A stretch of DNA of 64,000 nucleotides from Peltaster fructicola (lineage: Eukaryota > Ascomycota > Dothideomycetes), in contig CP051139.1 in assembly GCA_001592805.2 (NCBI GenBank), forward strand, positions 4,588,001-4,652,000. Direction: 5' to 3'. Below the pieces are notes generated by a model. It did not search any database. It saw only the letters and a program-made list of their open reading frames with translations, and had not been told where the DNA came from. Both the position numbers and the translations under genes were made by a program. This document shows positions 1,604 through 33,418 of the stretch, in pieces. The first letter of the stretch is position 1. The number at the start of each line of letters is the position of its first letter.

Positions 1604-4600
1604 CTAGATATCGTACAGCGCTTCAAGGTCCTCGTTACTCAAGAAGTCGTCGTAATCAGAGATGTCAAGGTCCTCTTGATCGGGATCCAGATCACAGAGC
1701 AAGCCTTTCACATCAGCCTCAGTCTCTCTGATCTTGGGTGCCTTTATCTTCAGATGTGGCTCTATTGCTTCAAGGACTCTTTTGCCGCTCTCACTGTGGG
1801 CCTTTATAAAGCACAAAACGCTCTTGTCCAGCCAGAAGGTCGCCTTGTCCTTCATGTGGAACCTATCGAAGAGAATGCTTGTTCGTATGCACTCCCATAA
1901 TGATGGTGCATGTGGTGCTGGTTTGATCTCAGTCCAAGAAAAGGACGGAGGAGGTTGTATCTTCTTGTACAGTTCGAACAATTCCGCTGCCGTCCTAGAT
2001 GGACGATCCGACCATATCTCGTGCCACTGGTTCAACACGTTCCGTATCTCCTTCTCAGCCGTCGCCCTTAGATCTTTGCAAGCAGCGCCATCGTTGAATG
2101 AGTTGCTGACGAATGTTTCGTATGGCCACCTGAGGTCACAGTCCTTCGTAGATACATCCTTAAACTTAGATGTGATCTGTGTCATAGCCACTTTGGCACG
2201 GTCCAGTAGAACTCCAAAGTAGACAGCGTCCAGGATGTTCGTGGAGTGCTCTGATCTCTTGTCTTTGAAGAAGTTGAGTATTATCTTTCTGCGGTTTTCA
2301 GCCAATCGTTCCTTTCGAACAGCCTTTGTGAGCTCCTGATTCTTTGCTCGCCAGGCTGGAGCAGCTGCCTCGACGGTAAAGCCGCATTTTTTCATGGCTT
2401 CATGGTATGTTGCATCGGTGAGCGTATAGCCATTCTTTGCCGCGTCAGCAAGATGATCGTGTAGGTCGGCAAAGTACAGAGCAGCCGCAGATGATATCTC
2501 GTTGGTGCGATAGCTTGTGGCATAGTACTGATTAGTGACTGTACCCAGCCAGGTCCGCTGGAGTTTGAACTCGAAGGCGTGTCTGAGGAATTCATCACAA
2601 TAGTCCACTGTTATACTGCCATCACTGGGGCCAAGGTCCCGCAGTTTCGTCTTGTCTTTTGTGATTCCCAGTTCTGACCATCTTTTGGGCTCCAAGACGG
2701 GTGCGTTCTGGAAGTCTGAGGTAAGTATAGGATCCCAGCACACCCAGAAAGTGTCACCGTCATAGTCTCCACCTTGGAGTTTCGCAGCGCCAGGCATACT
2801 TCCCTGTGAAGAGAAGACAATAACGTCCATGAGGTGCGCCAGCTTGGGCTCGAAGATGCACTGAACTTTCTGCATGTCCGAGTCCCTCAGAGTTGGATCT
2901 CGGGCCAGGATGACATTCTTTCCTGCAAGGTTAGTGATTCTCCGGGATCTGCTGCCATCCTCTATGGCTGTGGAAAAAGAAATATGGACTTTTCCAGGAG
3001 GGACAAGATCAGAGTGGTGTGCGATACCAAGCAACATCACAGATTGCGAGCAAGGTATGCGTATGCTCTGTAGGCTCTGGAGCTTGATCATGACACACAG
3101 CCGCTCATACTCACTTGCCAAGAATCGGTTGGACTTTGACATAAGCCCGCCTTTGCGTAAGAAGAGAGATAGTCGGTTCGCAGGGTGAACGGGCATGTCG
3201 TGAGGGCCAGCTGTGGGTGCCTTGTCGATGTGCTTCTGTAGCAGCAGAGCATATCGAACTGGATCATCGATTGCGTCCAGCATTGCCATCGTCTCGGTTT
3301 CGAGACATTGAGCTGCCATTGACATAATGTCGCTTCGTTTGACTCCACGACTCTCGAGGACCTGCAGGAAATCTCTATGCACTCCAGCGGAGCGAGGAGG
3401 ATGGCTGTAAGTTCTCACGTCGAACGATAGGAGTGTCTTGTCCCGCTGGTAGACGACGTCGAGGTTGTCAAGTGAGTAGCAGTGTTTGACCTTGAGTTGG
3501 CTCTTGCGTATTTCTATCCAGACGTCCAGATCATTGGTATCGCTGGTATTGGGATCAGCGCTGATGTACCATACTCCCTTTGAACCGAATATCCGAGCCT
3601 GAAAAGCGGATGGTATTACTTCGAGACCTTGCTGCTCACATATTAGAAGAACAGCACCAACTGAGATACGTGCACATCCGTCAGTCATGGCTTCGTCTGC
3701 GTCATACTTGCGTGGTAGTCTGTGAGTGGTTCGATATCTCTTGTCGAGGAAGGGATCGTCGTCCTGTTTTGTTGTTGGTCTGAGGTCCTCGACGAGTCTG
3801 ATCTGGTGAGGTCTGAACGTGATTGTCGGGATCGTCCTTGAGAGCACAAGGGAGATCCGAGAGTATGCTTTGCATGCAGGCTGGTCGAGATTGTACTTAG
3901 CTGGGACCGCCCAACGGAGTACAAAGTCGTGTAATTCGACCCTCTCAAGTCCTGGACCATCGACAGCAAAGAACACAGCTCTAAAAGGAAAGTCTCTCTG
4001 GCTATTCCTTTTACTCTGCTGGATCTGCTTCTTGTCCTTCGCCTCCAGTTCAAACGCACGCCACTCTCGTCCGAGCAGATGACAGGGTTGAAGGAGCCAT
4101 TCTCTGAACTTGGACTCCAGTAGTCCTTGATGTGGTCTGATATGCGGGGGTATCCATTTTGGATCGAAGTCAACATATAGGAAGCGATCCCAGCCGTAGC
4201 TCCGTGACGCTCGACATCCCTGGTCTAGACGAATACGAGTGGGATGAAGGATGAACAATGGTCCAACATTGCTCTCGTTCAGGAGAAACGATGCCGTCAG
4301 TACTGGTATCCGTGGCCCGGTCTGTTCCTTGGCGAAAGCTTGTAGGCATGAATGTTCAAATGTTGCACCCTTTGGATGCGCTCTGACGATGTCTTTGAGG
4401 CCAGTAAGATTTCTGATCTTGCTGATGACTCCCTTTTCTAGCCGCAGCACATTGAAAGCTCTGAGGATTTCCCATTTCAACGGCCATGATATGTTGCCAC
4501 GCATAAGTGGATCTGTTACACCAAAACCCATGCTGGGAAAGTCCCGGACTTGGTGTTGTACAATTGTCGGACGATTGTCTACGTTGTTGAGTCGTCGTCG

Positions 4601-5569
4601 TTTGTCATCATGACTATCAGGAGTCTTCGGTCCTTCGATTTGAACGCCGGACGCTCTTGTCATACATGTAATACGCGCAGTCCGTGAACCGATGTCGTGA
4701 CGTTTGTTGGTGGGAGGACTGATTGAGAGTCGTGCGGTGCTAGTCTTTGGTGAGGATCGTTCCTTTGGTGTAGTTGCGATTGCCATGCTTATGTGCTCCT
4801 GCGTGCGTGGTCCCCAGGATGAGCCGTACGGTGTGGCTGGCTCGATAGTATTGCTAGCAAAGGAGATCTCGGCATCTATGTGCTTTTGCGTCTCTAATCC
4901 CCATGAGGATCCATACTGTGTAGCTGGCTCGAGCATGTCGCTAGCAAATGAGGTCTTGGCAGTCTCAAGTTCGCCCGTGGTACCAGCCGTACTGTTGCTT
5001 GATGGTATGGAGTTGTTGGAAGAGCTTGGCGTAGACCCAAATGGAGTTTCGCGTGTCAATGTCCTGGTAGTTCTACGTAGACCTTCAGTGAGGCCTGTTG
5101 ATGGTGTTTTAGTGCGAACAGGAGTGAAGTGTGGTTGTTTGTTCATCTTAACTCGTGGTATATTCTTGAGATCCTCCAGGAAAGCATTAATCCTGGGAGG
5201 GTCGGCTCTGGACGTGAAGGCTTTCTGTTCCCAAGCTTGGAGAAGGTTGTCTAGAGACACCGAATCCTGCCACATCAGGAATTGGATTCGCTTGTGTATC
5301 TCATCGTCATGATGTTTTCCCTTCCATGGACTGGATGGTGTCCAATTCACAGGTCGGTCCTCAATGGTCGTGTTTAGAAGTTGGGCTACCCTTGCGATGA
5401 CAGCTTTGTATCTTTCTGCTGAACTAGTAGGCGCAGGACTCTGCGGCCTATTATTTCGCGGCATTAGACGGTAGGTGCTGGTAGTTGCATTGCTGTTCTC
5501 GTTGTTGTTTGTATCAGGCTTCAAGTATTTGAAGTCCAAGAAGAGAAAGGTGGGGCGTGCAGCATGCAT
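1604..5569 (-). CDS. Cellular RNA-dependent RNA polymerase of the RNA-silencing pathway
   Basis: A 1321-codon uninterrupted frame encodes a eukaryotic RdRP of the QDE-1/Sad-1/RRP-3 class. These enzymes copy aberrant RNA into double strands that feed Dicer and Argonaute in quelling or meiotic silencing. The catalytic loop GGDYDGDTFWVCWDP is intact; the metal-binding DYDGD lies at residues 935-939. Upstream blocks typical of the family include VHPANRLSLFLRKGGLMSKS-like and VLLGIAHHSDLVPPGKVHI-like segments, and NLAGKNVILARDP precedes the catalytic loop. The N-terminal ~340 residues are low-complexity, Ser/Thr/Pro-rich and carry an imperfect duplication (separate entry). A Met at about residue 36 is an alternative start. 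I cannot tell which of the three fungal RdRP paralogues this is. Confidence 0.9.
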   Translation of the reverse strand: MHAARPTFLFLDFKYLKPDTNNNENSNATTSTYRLMPRNNRPQSPAPTSSAERYKAVIARVAQLLNTTIEDRPVNWTPSSPWKGKHHDDEIHKRIQFLMWQDSVSLDNLLQAWEQKAFTSRADPPRINAFLEDLKNIPRVKMNKQPHFTPVRTKTPSTGLTEGLRRTTRTLTRETPFGSTPSSSNNSIPSSNSTAGTTGELETAKTSFASDMLEPATQYGSSWGLETQKHIDAEISFASNTIEPATPYGSSWGPRTQEHISMAIATTPKERSSPKTSTARLSISPPTNKRHDIGSRTARITCMTRASGVQIEGPKTPDSHDDKRRRLNNVDNRPTIVQHQVRDFPSMGFGVTDPLMRGNISWPLKWEILRAFNVLRLEKGVISKIRNLTGLKDIVRAHPKGATFEHSCLQAFAKEQTGPRIPVLTASFLLNESNVGPLFILHPTRIRLDQGCRASRSYGWDRFLYVDFDPKWIPPHIRPHQGLLESKFREWLLQPCHLLGREWRAFELEAKDKKQIQQSKRNSQRDFPFRAVFFAVDGPGLERVELHDFVLRWAVPAKYNLDQPACKAYSRISLVLSRTIPTITFRPHQIRLVEDLRPTTKQDDDPFLDKRYRTTHRLPRKYDADEAMTDGCARISVGAVLLICEQQGLEVIPSAFQARIFGSKGVWYISADPNTSDTNDLDVWIEIRKSQLKVKHCYSLDNLDVVYQRDKTLLSFDVRTYSHPPRSAGVHRDFLQVLESRGVKRSDIMSMAAQCLETETMAMLDAIDDPVRYALLLQKHIDKAPTAGPHDMPVHPANRLSLFLRKGGLMSKSNRFLASEYERLCVMIKLQSLQSIRIPCSQSVMLLGIAHHSDLVPPGKVHISFSTAIEDGSRSRRITNLAGKNVILARDPTLRDSDMQKVQCIFEPKLAHLMDVIVFSSQGSMPGAAKLQGGDYDGDTFWVCWDPILTSDFQNAPVLEPKRWSELGITKDKTKLRDLGPSDGSITVDYCDEFLRHAFEFKLQRTWLGTVTNQYYATSYRTNEISSAAALYFADLHDHLADAAKNGYTLTDATYHEAMKKCGFTVEAAAPAWRAKNQELTKAVRKERLAENRRKIILNFFKDKRSEHSTNILDAVYFGVLLDRAKVAMTQITSKFKDVSTKDCDLRWPYETFVSNSFNDGAACKDLRATAEKEIRNVLNQWHEIWSDRPSRTAAELFELYKKIQPPPSFSWTEIKPAPHAPSLWECIRTSILFDRFHMKDKATFWLDKSVLCFIKAHSESGKRVLEAIEPHLKIKAPKIRETEADVKGLLCDLDPDQEDLDISDYDDFLSNEDLEALYDI
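4786..4965 (-). repeat. Internal duplication in the RdRP N-terminus
   Basis: Two adjacent copies of about 29 codons encode the pattern SFAS(D/N)-(L/I)EPAT-YGSSWG followed by TQ-HI. The DNA copies are still alike, for example the two blocks reading atactg/gtacgg next to gctggctcga. They lie in the disordered leader ahead of the catalytic core. Confidence 0.7.
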
Positions 5570-5867
5570 GAAGGCAGATGGTGCAGCAGTTGGGCTTGAG
5601 CTGCCGCAGATAGCCTTGTGAAGCCGGTCGGCAAAGGTATCATATACATTGTTGTGCAGTTTGCAAGGTGTGAGAGAAGCAGAAGAGTAGTATGAGCAAG
5701 TCGAGAACGAGACAAAGAGGTATCATGAAAAAGTATTTGAGCTTTTGCGAGAGGTCTGCTTACGAAGTACTCACAGAGTCTACGGGTAGTTGCGTGTAAA
5801 AACGATATCCTGCCGGCTCAGAGGTACCGTCACATGCTAGATCGTAAAGGGTAATGCTGTCGTATCT
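5570..5867. other. Intergenic region upstream of the RdRP gene
   Basis: Holds the 5' flank of the RdRP gene and the 3' flank of the TCTP gene; both are on the minus strand. A 64-codon open frame overlapping the RdRP start has no recognisable features. Confidence 0.4.
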
Positions 5868-8899: not shown

Positions 8900-10627
8900 T
8901 TACATCTTGTCAAAGACTGCAATGCCAGTCAAGCCTTGCTTGGGGTTTCCATGAGTTCTGAACTCACTCGCTGTCAGCTCGTCATCATCGCCATCGTAGA
9001 GGACGCTCTTCTCTGCTTCAGACCCATGTAGCATGTCGAAGCTCTCACCACTCGAGCTTGCGCTAGGACTCTGCGATCCTGATGGCTTCTCGAATACAGA
9101 GTGGTCATCATTGGTCCGTCCTACCCAGAGTTGGCCGCCGGTAGACACCTTTTGTCGAGACACTTCGTGCTCTTCGTGGGAATATGTTGTGTCGAGTGGT
9201 AGGCTTCGTTGATGCCACTCGCCAATAAACATACCTTCAGGGTCTGCCTTGTTGCGTGCCTCTAACCATTGTGCACAGGTATCTGGATACATGCTCTTGA
9301 TGTCGTCTCGGTCAGTGTAGGTGAAGTTCTTCGCCCAGTGTGGTCTCCCACCCATGTCACGCATGAGCCATTCGAAAGCCTCATAGTATCTCCATCGACA
9401 TGGTGGGTCTTGATGGTATGGTCGATACAGTGTGGCATTGAGAAAGAGTGTCGGTCCATGCGATGCAGTTATGTCAAGATATGGTCGTGGACTCGCAGCA
9501 GAAGTATCACTGACACGAACCTCGATAGGGCAGTGAACATAGAGTCCTTTCGAGGAAAATGGGATGCCACTGCCTGTCTCGCCGTTCATCCATGCACTGA
9601 GGCGCTGAATCGCCTCTGGACCTTTGTGCAATGGAATGGCCCATTCGTTGACGAATTGTGAGTATAAGCAGTTCATCAACAGACCAGAGCGAAGAGGCTC
9701 AATCGCGCTTGTTGTTGTTCCAGTCTTGAAACCATACTGCATGCCGAAGATGAACCACTCGATCCATGGTAAGATTGGTGGGATGTAGTTCGATAGGAAT
9801 AGTAGATTGTGGTAAGTGTGGAAGCCAACCGCACCGCCATACCAGCTGGCAGTTGCTGCTCTCTCAGGTTTGTCTGTTCGTTCTGCTGACCATACAATGG
9901 CTCTTTTAGTATATGGCATCCACCAAACGCGAGTGTATTCCTTCTGCGTCCAGAGTGTAGTGTTCCATGTGTCAAGGATCTCAGCTAGAGGCTTGAGTGT
10001 CTGCTCCCATTCGATGTTGCAAGCATCAGTCATCTCGAACTCGACCTCGACAATGATACCAAGTGCACCAAGGGACAGCAGTGCAGCCTTGAAGAGCTCT
10101 TCGTTCTGTTCCGCTGAGCATCGTACAGCTTGGCCGTTGGAGAGGACAATGCGTAGGGACCTGACCGATTGTGAGAGCAGACCATGCTTCAGCGAGCTGC
10201 CGTGTGTGCCGGTGGATATAGCACCAGCAATACTCTGCTCGTCGATGCTACCAAGGTTTGGCATTGTAAGGCCATGCTTGTTCGCCTCTGCATTCATATC
10301 CCGCATCCTGATACCTGCTTCTACGAGAAGTGTCTTCTTTGCTGCGTCCACCTTCAACACACGGTCGTAGTCGTCAAGGTTGACCATCCACGAGCTGGTA
10401 CAGGTGAGGTCGCTTGGGGAGTGACCGCTTCCCACCACGACGATTCTTCGACGACATCGTCTTGCGACATTGACGATCTTCTGCACTTCTTCAAGGGATT
10501 GTGGTCGCAAGTATAGCTCAGGTCGTGACAGGAACGTGCGAGCCCAGGTATGGTGGAGATGTCGTGTGGTCGATCGGAAGGCGATGTCTGGATCGGTTCT
10601 GTCGATTTCTTGCTGGATCCTGTCCAT
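8900..10627 (-). CDS. ALO1: D-arabinono-1,4-lactone oxidase
   Basis: A single 575-codon exon encodes the FAD enzyme that makes D-erythroascorbate, the fungal vitamin C analogue, from D-arabinono-1,4-lactone at the mitochondrial outer membrane. The N-terminal VAO-type FAD domain (about residues 36-170) has VVVGSGHSPSDL with the His (residue 69) expected to hold FAD covalently. It also has NLGSIDEQSIAGAISTGTHGSS. The C-terminal ALO domain follows (about 200-480), with WPDTCAQWLEARNKADPEGMF-type sequence. The last ~90 residues are Ser-rich and not conserved in the family. The closest alternatives, sugar-lactone oxidases such as L-gulonolactone oxidase, share the fold. In a fungus ALO1 is the likely role. 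Confidence 0.9.
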   Translation of the reverse strand: MDRIQQEIDRTDPDIAFRSTTRHLHHTWARTFLSRPELYLRPQSLEEVQKIVNVARRCRRRIVVVGSGHSPSDLTCTSSWMVNLDDYDRVLKVDAAKKTLLVEAGIRMRDMNAEANKHGLTMPNLGSIDEQSIAGAISTGTHGSSLKHGLLSQSVRSLRIVLSNGQAVRCSAEQNEELFKAALLSLGALGIIVEVEFEMTDACNIEWEQTLKPLAEILDTWNTTLWTQKEYTRVWWMPYTKRAIVWSAERTDKPERAATASWYGGAVGFHTYHNLLFLSNYIPPILPWIEWFIFGMQYGFKTGTTTSAIEPLRSGLLMNCLYSQFVNEWAIPLHKGPEAIQRLSAWMNGETGSGIPFSSKGLYVHCPIEVRVSDTSAASPRPYLDITASHGPTLFLNATLYRPYHQDPPCRWRYYEAFEWLMRDMGGRPHWAKNFTYTDRDDIKSMYPDTCAQWLEARNKADPEGMFIGEWHQRSLPLDTTYSHEEHEVSRQKVSTGGQLWVGRTNDDHSVFEKPSGSQSPSASSSGESFDMLHGSEAEKSVLYDGDDDELTASEFRTHGNPKQGLTGIAVFDKM

Positions 10628-11379
10628 GATGAAGTTGTTGTGCGTGTCTCAGCCGCCGCTGACTGTGATGATCTACTTGCCTTTGCGCATCGCTGACTAT
10701 CGATCACCAGGTCAGGTGAGCATTGTTAGTCAAAGTGACTGTCGTAGTGGTGTGCGAATGAACTGTCGTCCCGCGGGTCCGTGCGTTGAGTCGAATATAT
10801 CCTTGAGAGCTTCCCTTCCTGTTTCATTACACTCCTTCTCTTTTGGATGTGCAGTCTTTCAACACTCTGCACGTCAATCCTACTCTAAGAATCTCCGAAT
10901 CGCTCATCTGTGGCAAGTGCGCCTTGCCACACTTGCGAGTACCAACGCACAAGCTTTCACACCACCGAGTTGTGATGTCTTGCCGAGAGTCGTTAATTGC
11001 GCGCGTTTGAACAGCGGTCACCTAATCAGTATTTAGTGCAAGAGCCTTGTTGATTCCTTACCATTCGTTCTGAAGAATCGTGCATCTTGATCGCGGCACA
11101 AGAAACAGCTTTTGCGCAGCCTCCTGCGGTGACAAACTTGGTACGCATACACGTAGTTGCGGCGTCTGCGGCGCTTAGACACGCACTGCTTGCATATATA
11201 TATCAGCTGGTCTGTATCAGGTTCGCTGTGCTTACCAATTAGTTCTCTGCTATTGACAGACTCCAATCCATCACGATAACCATTATACACAGACCAACGT
11301 CGCCGAGTGACTCGTCGGATACATACTCCCGTTACACAGCAAGCAGTCCGTCAAATTCTTGAATCACTAGTGGTCAACC
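10628..11379. other. Intergenic region between divergent genes
   Basis: Upstream region of ALO1 (leftward) and the ankyrin gene (rightward). I see no coding sequence with family resemblance. A short TATATATA-type run lies near 11197, and CT-rich tracts near 10810-10850 look like fungal promoter sequence. Confidence 0.4.
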
Positions 11380-17598: not shown

Positions 17599-17710
17599 TG
17601 ACAAGAAGGGGATTCGAACCCCTGCGGGCAAAGCCCATGAGAATCCACGTCGATTAAATCGATGAAGCAGCAGCTTGAGTCACACGCCATAACCACTCGG
17701 CCATCTTGCC
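17599..17710 (-). tRNA. tRNA-Leu(CAA) with 30-nt intron
   Basis: The 5' acceptor arm GGCAAGA (17710-17704) pairs fully with TCTTGTC (17606-17600; one G-T pair), followed by discriminator A, as in eukaryotic tRNA-Leu. The D arm is GCC/GGC. The anticodon loop CTCAAG gives CAA. A class II variable arm GGGC-TTT-GCCC and a T arm AGGGG-TTCGAAT-CCCCT complete the fold. An intron of about 30 nt (17673-17644) sits directly after position 37, the standard place. The anticodon stem TGTGA/TCTCA has one T-T mismatch at 29:41. Mature length is 82 nt before CCA. Confidence 0.88.
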
Positions 17711-32673: not shown

Positions 32674-33284
32674 GAGCAGCTGTGACCTGCAGAGCTTAGC
32701 GAGAGTGGTTCATGGCATGTCTGAGCGTGCTAGACTCGGGGAGTGTTGCTGGGATCATCTACAGCTTCTCTGGACGGTTGACAGTCATACCATGCTGCTT
32801 GCCGCTACAGAGACGTCAGGTTGCTGCTAGAGTCATGGCTAACGGTATCATGCCACAGTCAGTCCCGGTTATGGCTACAGATTGACGACCGTCTTCTTGC
32901 TTGAACGAGCCAGAGTATCAGCTGTTGGGCATTAGCAATGATATAGACAGACAATGCAGTATGTCTCCCTGCTGATTGACGAACTGTACCGTGTATTGTT
33001 AGACGCCGTTCGGAACGACCGTGATGCCTTCAATGTCGGAGCGTCCAGCCGAAATTCCGAGCTATCGGCCGACGAGCTGACGACCCAAACCAGGGTGTAG
33101 TATGGGCTACGAACATGTCAACGACATGATATGTATACCAATCGATAGCCCTTGACGTGGCGATGCTGCTGGTAGTAATGACGATGTCGTATCTCCAGAT
33201 TTGCGGTGCCGAGTGTTGATATGGCTCCAAATCCCCAAAAGTCAACAAAAATCGAAAAATAAACCGCCACAGACGGCGGCAACA
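32674..33284. other. Intergenic region
   Basis: No supported gene between the secreted protein and the tRNA-Asn gene. The AT-rich run just past the tRNA 3' end (T-rich on the minus strand, 33239-33262) may act as Pol III terminator. Confidence 0.4.
33262..33284 (-). terminator. Possible spacer and Pol III terminator region of tRNA-Asn
   Basis: Downstream of the discriminator base the minus strand reads a GC-rich hairpin (GCCGCCGTCTGTGGCGG), then runs of T from about 33262 on. The T runs are split (TTTATTTTTCG), with one run of five. Placement of the real termination site is inferred. Confidence 0.35.
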
Positions 33285-33418
33285 CTCCTCCGGTCAGGAT
33301 TGAACTGACAGCCTCCAGATGCACCGTGGGATAACAGTCTGACTTGAAAGGGATTAGTCCATGAGCCATAATGATCGAGAGAACCACATACCGCGCTAGC
33401 CAATTGCGCCACGGAGGA
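33285..33418 (-). tRNA. tRNA-Asn(GTT) containing two introns, one non-canonical
   Basis: The acceptor arm TCCTCCG (33418-33412) pairs perfectly with CGGAGGA (33292-33286), discriminator G. The D arm is GCGC-AATTGGCTA-GCGC; the T arm is GTCAG-TTCAATC-CTGAC with no mismatch; the variable loop is AGGCT. The anticodon stem is TCAGA (33342-33338) with TCTGG, and the loop CTGTTA-A reads GTT. To obtain this fold two inserts must be removed. One is 11 nt after position 37 (33331-33321), the normal tRNA intron site. The other is 49 nt after position 26 (33391-33343). With both removed the tRNA is 74 nt, the usual length for tRNA-Asn, and every stem pairs. A box (TGGCGCAATTGG) and B box (AGTTCAATCC) are intact. 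The perfect stems argue for a functional gene. Confidence 0.82.
33343..33391 (-). other. 49-nt spliceosomal-intron-like insert inside tRNA-Asn
   Basis: Lies between the D arm and the anticodon arm (after nucleotide 26). Its first bases are GTATGT, a consensus fungal 5' splice site. GGACTAATC (CTAAT branch-point type) lies about 13 nt before the 3' end, and it ends TTTCAAG. Length and layout match the 41-50 nt introns of protein genes in this window. An alternative boundary shifted by one G gives the same tRNA. Confidence 0.7.

Follow-up and report, generated by a model that had tools for sequence, protein, structure and literature searches.

GT-AG inserts of mRNA-intron type interrupt eleven tRNA genes of Peltaster fructicola, including the only tRNA-Asn gene found

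Introns of tRNAs and of other small structured RNAs

The canonical introns of nuclear tRNA genes lie at position 37/38 and are removed by the Sen/TSEN endonuclease. One account, as far as its accessible text goes, confines nuclear tRNA introns to 37/38 but mentions ectopic introns in Cyanidioschyzon merolae as well (PMC3978253); another, in the sections available, assigns the non-canonical tRNA introns of eukaryotes to red algae and nucleomorphs, regarding other inserts as pseudogenes (PMC4090602). In C. merolae and in nucleomorphs, a tRNA can carry more than one intron, and the D, T and anticodon arms can be interrupted (accessible parts of PMC4090602 and PMC3978253); the bulge-helix-bulge introns of archaea likewise come several to a tRNA and at many sites. 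A 2026 review, in its accessible portion, lists tRNA splicing as independent of the spliceosome (PMC13149111). Where spliceosomal introns do enter small structured RNAs, the available text of one study names U3 and U6 as the only such RNAs known to be often interrupted, and cites a reference for the intron of fission-yeast U6 (PMC5832005).

These introns of U6 snRNA and U3 snoRNA are the nearest precedents for the inserts that we describe here in Peltaster fructicola, a fungus with a small genome that grows on the skins of apples; like them, the inserts have GT-AG ends and a branch motif inside a small structured RNA. U6, moreover, is a Pol III product. The difference lies in the hosts, which here are tRNA genes: 11 of the 45 located are interrupted, at 12 sites, and nine of the 11 (tRNA-Asn included) also carry an endonuclease-type intron at 37/38. 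From canonical introns the extra inserts differ in lying elsewhere in the gene and in having GT-AG ends with a branch motif, and the introns at comparable sites in Guillardia are 3-24 nt long, whereas ours measure 48-54 nt and are of GT-AG type. Our search of the open-licence literature turned up no paper that describes a nuclear tRNA gene with a spliceosomal intron, and the accessible parts of PMC6461891 and PMC11782384 hold nothing of this kind. A U6 snRNA gene of P. fructicola itself (C5 near 1564300, minus strand) is apparently intronless; it is followed by a T-run and, further downstream, by GTTCGAATCC, maybe an external B box.

The tRNA-Asn(GTT) locus

Our starting point was a window of 64,000 nt, in which a tRNA-Asn(GTT) gene with two inserts occupies 134 nt of the minus strand (33285..33418, letters checked by coordinates), 33418 being its 5' end and 33285 the discriminator G. 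Exon 1 (33392..33418, 27 nt, likewise checked) comprises the 5' strand of the acceptor stem, the D arm and position 26. It is followed, between positions 26 and 27, by the GT-AG insert (33343..33391, 49 nt), which we read as a spliceosomal intron and which begins with GTATGT (33391-33386), contains CTAAT (33357-33353) and ends in AAG (33345-33343). Exon 2 (33332..33342, 11 nt) holds the 5' strand of the anticodon stem and the loop up to position 37, including the anticodon GTT; the canonical 37/38 intron follows (33321..33331, 11 nt), and exon 3 (33285..33320, 36 nt) runs from position 38 to the discriminator. All of these features lie on the minus strand. Joined, the exons of 27, 11 and 36 nt give a mature form of 74 nt that ARAGORN names tRNA-Asn(gtt).

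Once both inserts are taken out, the gene shows a cloverleaf with all stems (7 acceptor, 4 D, 5 anticodon with one T-G, and 5 T-stem pairs), carries GTT as its anticodon and has both promoter boxes and a likely terminator. The A box TGGCGCAATTGG (33400..33411, minus) is whole and lies 5' of the 49-nt insert, the B box GTTCAATCC (33297..33305, minus) is whole and lies 3' of both inserts, each assigned by the box consensus, and the first run of at least four T beyond the gene (33255..33259, minus) is the likely Pol III terminator. The initial annotation, made from the letters of the window, had claimed just these perfect stems after removal of 49 and 11 nt, with the 49-nt insert after position 26 and the 11-nt insert at 37/38, and these claims hold. 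For example, among all 2,635 single deletions of 35-65 nt, two lead to a class I cloverleaf, and the two are equivalent placements of one and the same 49-nt deletion, one placement being GT..AG; widening the range to 30-80 nt (4,080 deletions tried) gave the same single product. An earlier, looser scoring had passed six deletions with three products, one of them GT..AG. Once the 49 nt are removed, ARAGORN itself reports the 11-nt intron.

Uncut, the gene is hard to recognize. It has no Rfam tRNA match, ARAGORN at default settings reports no tRNA in the window, and when long introns are allowed the program names the uncut gene His. The only Rfam tRNA of the window is a tRNA-Leu(CAA) with a 32-nt 37/38 intron (17599-17710, minus). 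Two further features were seen around tRNA-Asn. Directly 3' of the gene (33284-33255, minus), a GC-rich hairpin GCCGCC...GGCGG and, after it, TTTATTTTT resemble a hairpin terminator; most other tRNA genes of the genome end in a plain T-run. Additionally, ATGAGCCAT in the 5' leader (33451-33443, minus) is the exact 9-nt complement of ATGGCTCAT in the 49-nt insert (33369-33361, minus), through which leader and insert could conceivably pair.

Twelve inserts among 45 tRNA genes

The genome of P. fructicola comprises 18.99 Mb in five telomere-to-telomere chromosomes, with 1.36 introns per gene, a median intron of 50 bp and 44 tRNA genes by tRNAscan-SE, according to the accessible text of the genome paper (PMC7181583). 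Our own census, which combined family, protein, DNA and pattern searches with fetched regions and scripts, located 45 tRNA genes, all distinct: 31 parsed by script, two read by eye (L010 and L022), Val-AAC and the 11 with GT-AG inserts. A search with Rfam family RF00005 gave at least 29 matches, 28 of them above the cut-off (63 of 380 candidates were scored), and B-box patterns, A-box patterns and DNA queries extended these to 45; we fetched 40 of the 44 new matches of one B-box pattern and 20 of the 47 of one A-box pattern. No anticodon occurs twice except CAT, which serves initiator and elongator Met. A tRNA-His(GTG) was not found in this census, and when yeast tRNAs for His, Val, Glu and Tyr served as DNA queries, Glu-TTC alone came up. 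For three Leu genes (L012, L024 and L039), the script placed the anticodon one base off; L012 and L024 were read by eye, and L039 is TAG. We rejected L028 as Pro(CGG), its loop reading Arg(TCG); Pro(CGG) is L096/L100.

Some assignments carry oddities of their own. The gene that we read as tRNA-Gly(CCC) (L010, C3:228742-228820, minus) has C, not T, at position 33. A candidate tRNA-Tyr(GTA) (C4:1612128-1612212) is one base short between the acceptor and D stems and is without the C1-G72 pair, which is the usual pair of tRNA-Tyr. A tRNA-like sequence (L118, on C2, B box at 2905699-2905709, minus) has an A box, a T arm and a 7/7 acceptor stem, with no readable anticodon arm.

The initial annotation had raised the prospect that other tRNA genes carry the same insert at 26/27. 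We found 11 more inserts in 10 other tRNA genes, none of them at 26/27. Since these are of equal size and grammar, the tRNA-Asn insert is more than a chance occurrence. The interrupted loci came from the tRNA searches (Rfam, A-box and B-box features), in which no GT-AG filter was applied, and insert boundaries were placed by eye first and tested afterwards. The 12 inserts outside 37/38 occupy 12 different sites, from the acceptor stem to the T loop, and none of the GT-AG inserts is at 37/38. Starting from the 5' end, Pro-CGG is interrupted in the acceptor stem at 4/5 (49 nt), Ile-AAT in the D loop before the GG (50 nt), Leu-AAG in the D loop after the GG (49 nt), Pro-AGG in the D stem at 24/25 as counted against Pro-TGG (49 nt), and Asn at 26/27. 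Further along, Glu-CTC has its insert in the anticodon stem at 29/30 (51 nt), Ser-CGA (L029) has two, at 39/40 and 40/41 (48 and 49 nt), which flank a 1-nt exon next to a 10-nt 37/38 intron, and Ser-GCT is interrupted at 43/44 (54 nt). In the T arm are those of Gln-TTG (T stem, 51/52, 51 nt), Arg-TCT (T stem, 52/53, 53 nt) and Arg-TCG (T loop, 59/60, 51 nt). For Pro-CGG, GGCC followed by GT had been noted as the missing acceptor piece before the upstream DNA was fetched, and it was then found there.

What do the inserts have in common? All 12 begin with GTNNG(T/C), end in AG and contain a YTRAY branch motif that starts 14-18 nt before the end, and their 48-54 nt compare with the published mRNA intron median of 50 bp (PMC7181583, accessible text). 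GT..AG ends occur in none of 32 parsed 37/38 introns, a set that excludes L010, L022 and Val-AAC and in which the three Leu introns are possibly off by one base; shuffled inserts have GT..AG ends in 0.35% of cases on average and the full grammar in 0.005%. For mRNA introns of the window, we used the annotated proteins AMS68_002017 and AMS68_002010, which place four gaps of 48, 45, 202 and 44 nt. These begin with GTACGT, GTAAGT, GTGAGT and GTAAGT, have GCTGAT, GCTGAC, GCTAAC and GCTAAT before the 3' AG, and thus share GT(A/G)NGT, GCTRAY and YAG. The likeness in design and size that the initial annotation had noted between the tRNA-Asn insert and the mRNA introns of the window is borne out in this small sample of four, three being 44-48 nt long and one 202 nt. 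Other routes to window mRNA introns were rejected: coding potential gave one and then seven unconvincing candidates, and joining open frames gave 10 clusters, mostly ambiguous. The 12 inserts show no sign of a mobile, introner-like family, their best pair score of 22 equalling the median of the top pairs of shuffled sets (22), and avoidance of T-runs is not significant, TTTT occurring in one of the 12 inserts with 3.4 expected from shuffles (P ~0.1). With mRNA-intron grammar in 12 of 12 inserts and in none of the 32 parsed 37/38 introns, the proposal that a spliceosomal intron had landed in the tRNA-Asn gene is strongly supported, and we consider it very probable that the 49 nt are such an intron, of the ordinary major class, in a nuclear Pol III gene, and one of 12 in 11 of the 45 tRNA genes located.

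The fit of the inserts to their hosts was tested by deletion, by tRNA naming and by comparison with relatives. In none of the 12 deletion tests did the uncut gene reach a cloverleaf score, and in 10 of them the GT..AG deletion was among the best-scoring. It made up one of two best deletions in Asn, one of three in Gln-TTG, one of four each in Arg-TCT, Arg-TCG and Pro-CGG, and one of five in Glu-CTC; the two tests of Ser-CGA had 22 and 11 ties, and in Ser-GCT (191 ties) and Ile-AAT (29) the test says little about the junction, which the fold leaves unfixed. In Leu-AAG and Pro-AGG, the best deletion is not GT..AG, the GT-AG one lacking one D-stem pair. An earlier scoring with other bonuses had a GT..AG deletion in the best set in eight of 12 tests and, for Ser-GCT, a different GT..AG deletion. 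Pro-AGG and Pro-CGG each carry one mismatch in the acceptor stem. Given the fully spliced forms, ARAGORN arrives at the expected tRNA for all 11; with only the GT-AG inserts removed, it is right in nine of 11, Leu-AAG being shifted to TAA and Pro-CGG misread; given the uncut genes, it is fully right in none (five not found, five wrong, and Ser-GCT with the right anticodon and another intron). A warning follows for tRNA gene prediction, in which such genes can be overlooked or given a wrong name. Against intact relatives, four spliced genes align without gaps: Ser-CGA with Ser-AGA (73 of 81 positions matching), Gln-TTG with Gln-CTG (64 of 72), Glu-CTC with Glu-TTC (60 of 72) and Asn with Lys-TTT (57 of 74). 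The other seven have 0 to 11 gap columns against their closest relatives.

Could the inserts be artefacts of assembly or analysis? The assembly is based on long reads (PMC7181583, accessible text), and the boundaries were first placed by eye. However, base-calling errors do not produce such inserts, all 12 have grammar and size in common, and the gapless relatives fit the joined exons. An automatic search for GT..AG deletions, run over 92 fetched loci, picked out 14 that reach score 22; all 14 are tRNA genes, two being the same gene. The search overlooked Tyr, Cys and Pro-CGG, and for Ser-GCT it preferred a different GT..AG deletion. We regard the chance of an artefact as negligible.

A second alternative, which the initial annotation had also named, is that these tRNA genes have fallen out of use and are dead or dying, and that what landed in them is mRNA-type introns or other DNA. 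Inserts in tRNA arms elsewhere mostly occur in one of many synonymous copies and are taken as pseudogenes, according to the available text of PMC4090602. Here, in contrast, each of the 11 interrupted genes is the only one found for its anticodon, where "only" applies within our searches, as these were heuristic and the pattern matches were partly fetched. With RF00005 and DNA queries, no second copy of any of them was seen, and the search for an intact tRNA-Asn elsewhere in the genome likewise found none. Additionally, the stems are intact across the inserts, and exons align without gaps to relatives. The dead-gene reading is thereby weakened, and we rate it as extremely unlikely.

Transcription signals and proposed routes of removal

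Presuming that the inserts are spliceosomal introns, how would a mature tRNA-Asn arise? Pol III would transcribe the gene by way of its A and B boxes and halt at the T-run, and the spliceosome would take the GT-AG intron out of the uncapped precursor, as it does with the mRNA-type intron of fission-yeast U6. The joined RNA could then fold as a tRNA, from which the tRNA endonuclease and ligase would excise the 37/38 intron (in nine of the 11 genes), and the ends would be trimmed as usual. We infer the spliceosomal removal, the order of the steps and the function of the tRNAs from sequence. Ser-CGA would be demanding for the spliceosome since its two introns flank a 1-nt exon.

We also infer Pol III transcription of the 11 genes: ten of them match the A box, and each of the 11 has a B-box-like sequence and, 2-28 nt downstream, a T-run of at least four. 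These same signals weigh against the idea that the tRNAs are real and derive from Pol II transcripts, with the spliceosome acting on a capped precursor and the tRNA being cut out later. Such a route would ease the spliceosomal step, and in two genes the inserts do split a promoter box (the A box in Ile-AAT, the B box in Arg-TCG), so intron bases must replace promoter bases there or promoter strength suffers; the 11 genes nonetheless look like Pol III genes, and we think a Pol II origin unlikely. The insert of Arg-TCT contains TTTT, which could stop Pol III.

The remaining alternative, put forward in the initial annotation beside the spliceosomal one, is a tRNA splicing endonuclease that accepts new sites: it would cut the inserts as ectopic introns of the sort seen in Cyanidioschyzon and nucleomorphs, and the GT-AG ends would be inherited or accidental. 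The genome has two genes for catalytic subunits of the tRNA endonuclease family (PF01974), and eukaryotic endonucleases can cut at other sites in red algae and perhaps in nucleomorphs (PMC4090602, available text). The ectopic introns of C. merolae go with bulge-helix-bulge motifs, and in archaea it is likewise a structure that the protein enzyme recognizes. We looked for the core of that motif in its strict form, a four-pair helix between intron bases +2 to +5 and bases +2 to +5 of the 3' exon. It is present in none of the 12 inserts, in two of the 32 parsed 37/38 introns and in 3.6% of shuffles. Three of the four pairs can be formed in seven of the 12 inserts against 20% of shuffles, an excess that is tempered as a point for the endonuclease because the real inserts have more equivalent placements. 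Moreover, the enzyme requires no GT, no AG, no branch motif and no 50-nt length, and all 12 inserts keep all of these, at 12 sites that all differ. Cutting by the endonuclease at new sites is thus weakened as an explanation, and we hold it to be very unlikely.

Should removal follow what the sequence of these introns says, the spliceosome would be working on Pol III precursors that have no cap, fold tightly and contain tiny exons, and decoding would rely on it. It seems to us quite probable that a two-machine pathway matures roughly one quarter of the nuclear tRNAs, among them the only tRNA-Asn found. In this pathway, the spliceosome would act at any point along the tRNA, from the acceptor stem through the D loop, the D stem, 26/27, the anticodon stem and the variable arm to the T stem and the T loop, and the endonuclease at 37/38; spliceosomal introns would then have invaded the tRNA genes of Pol III, and translation would be spliceosome-dependent through its tRNAs. 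Such a genome would offer a natural system for the meeting of spliceosome and Pol III, for intron gain outside any reading frame and for the persistence of these introns in a compact genome. Elsewhere in the window, a long open frame on the minus strand (1607-5722) has an RNA-dependent RNA polymerase domain (PF05183), and the protein encoded at 8903-10648 (minus) is AMS68_002001, with 100% identity over 95% of the query.
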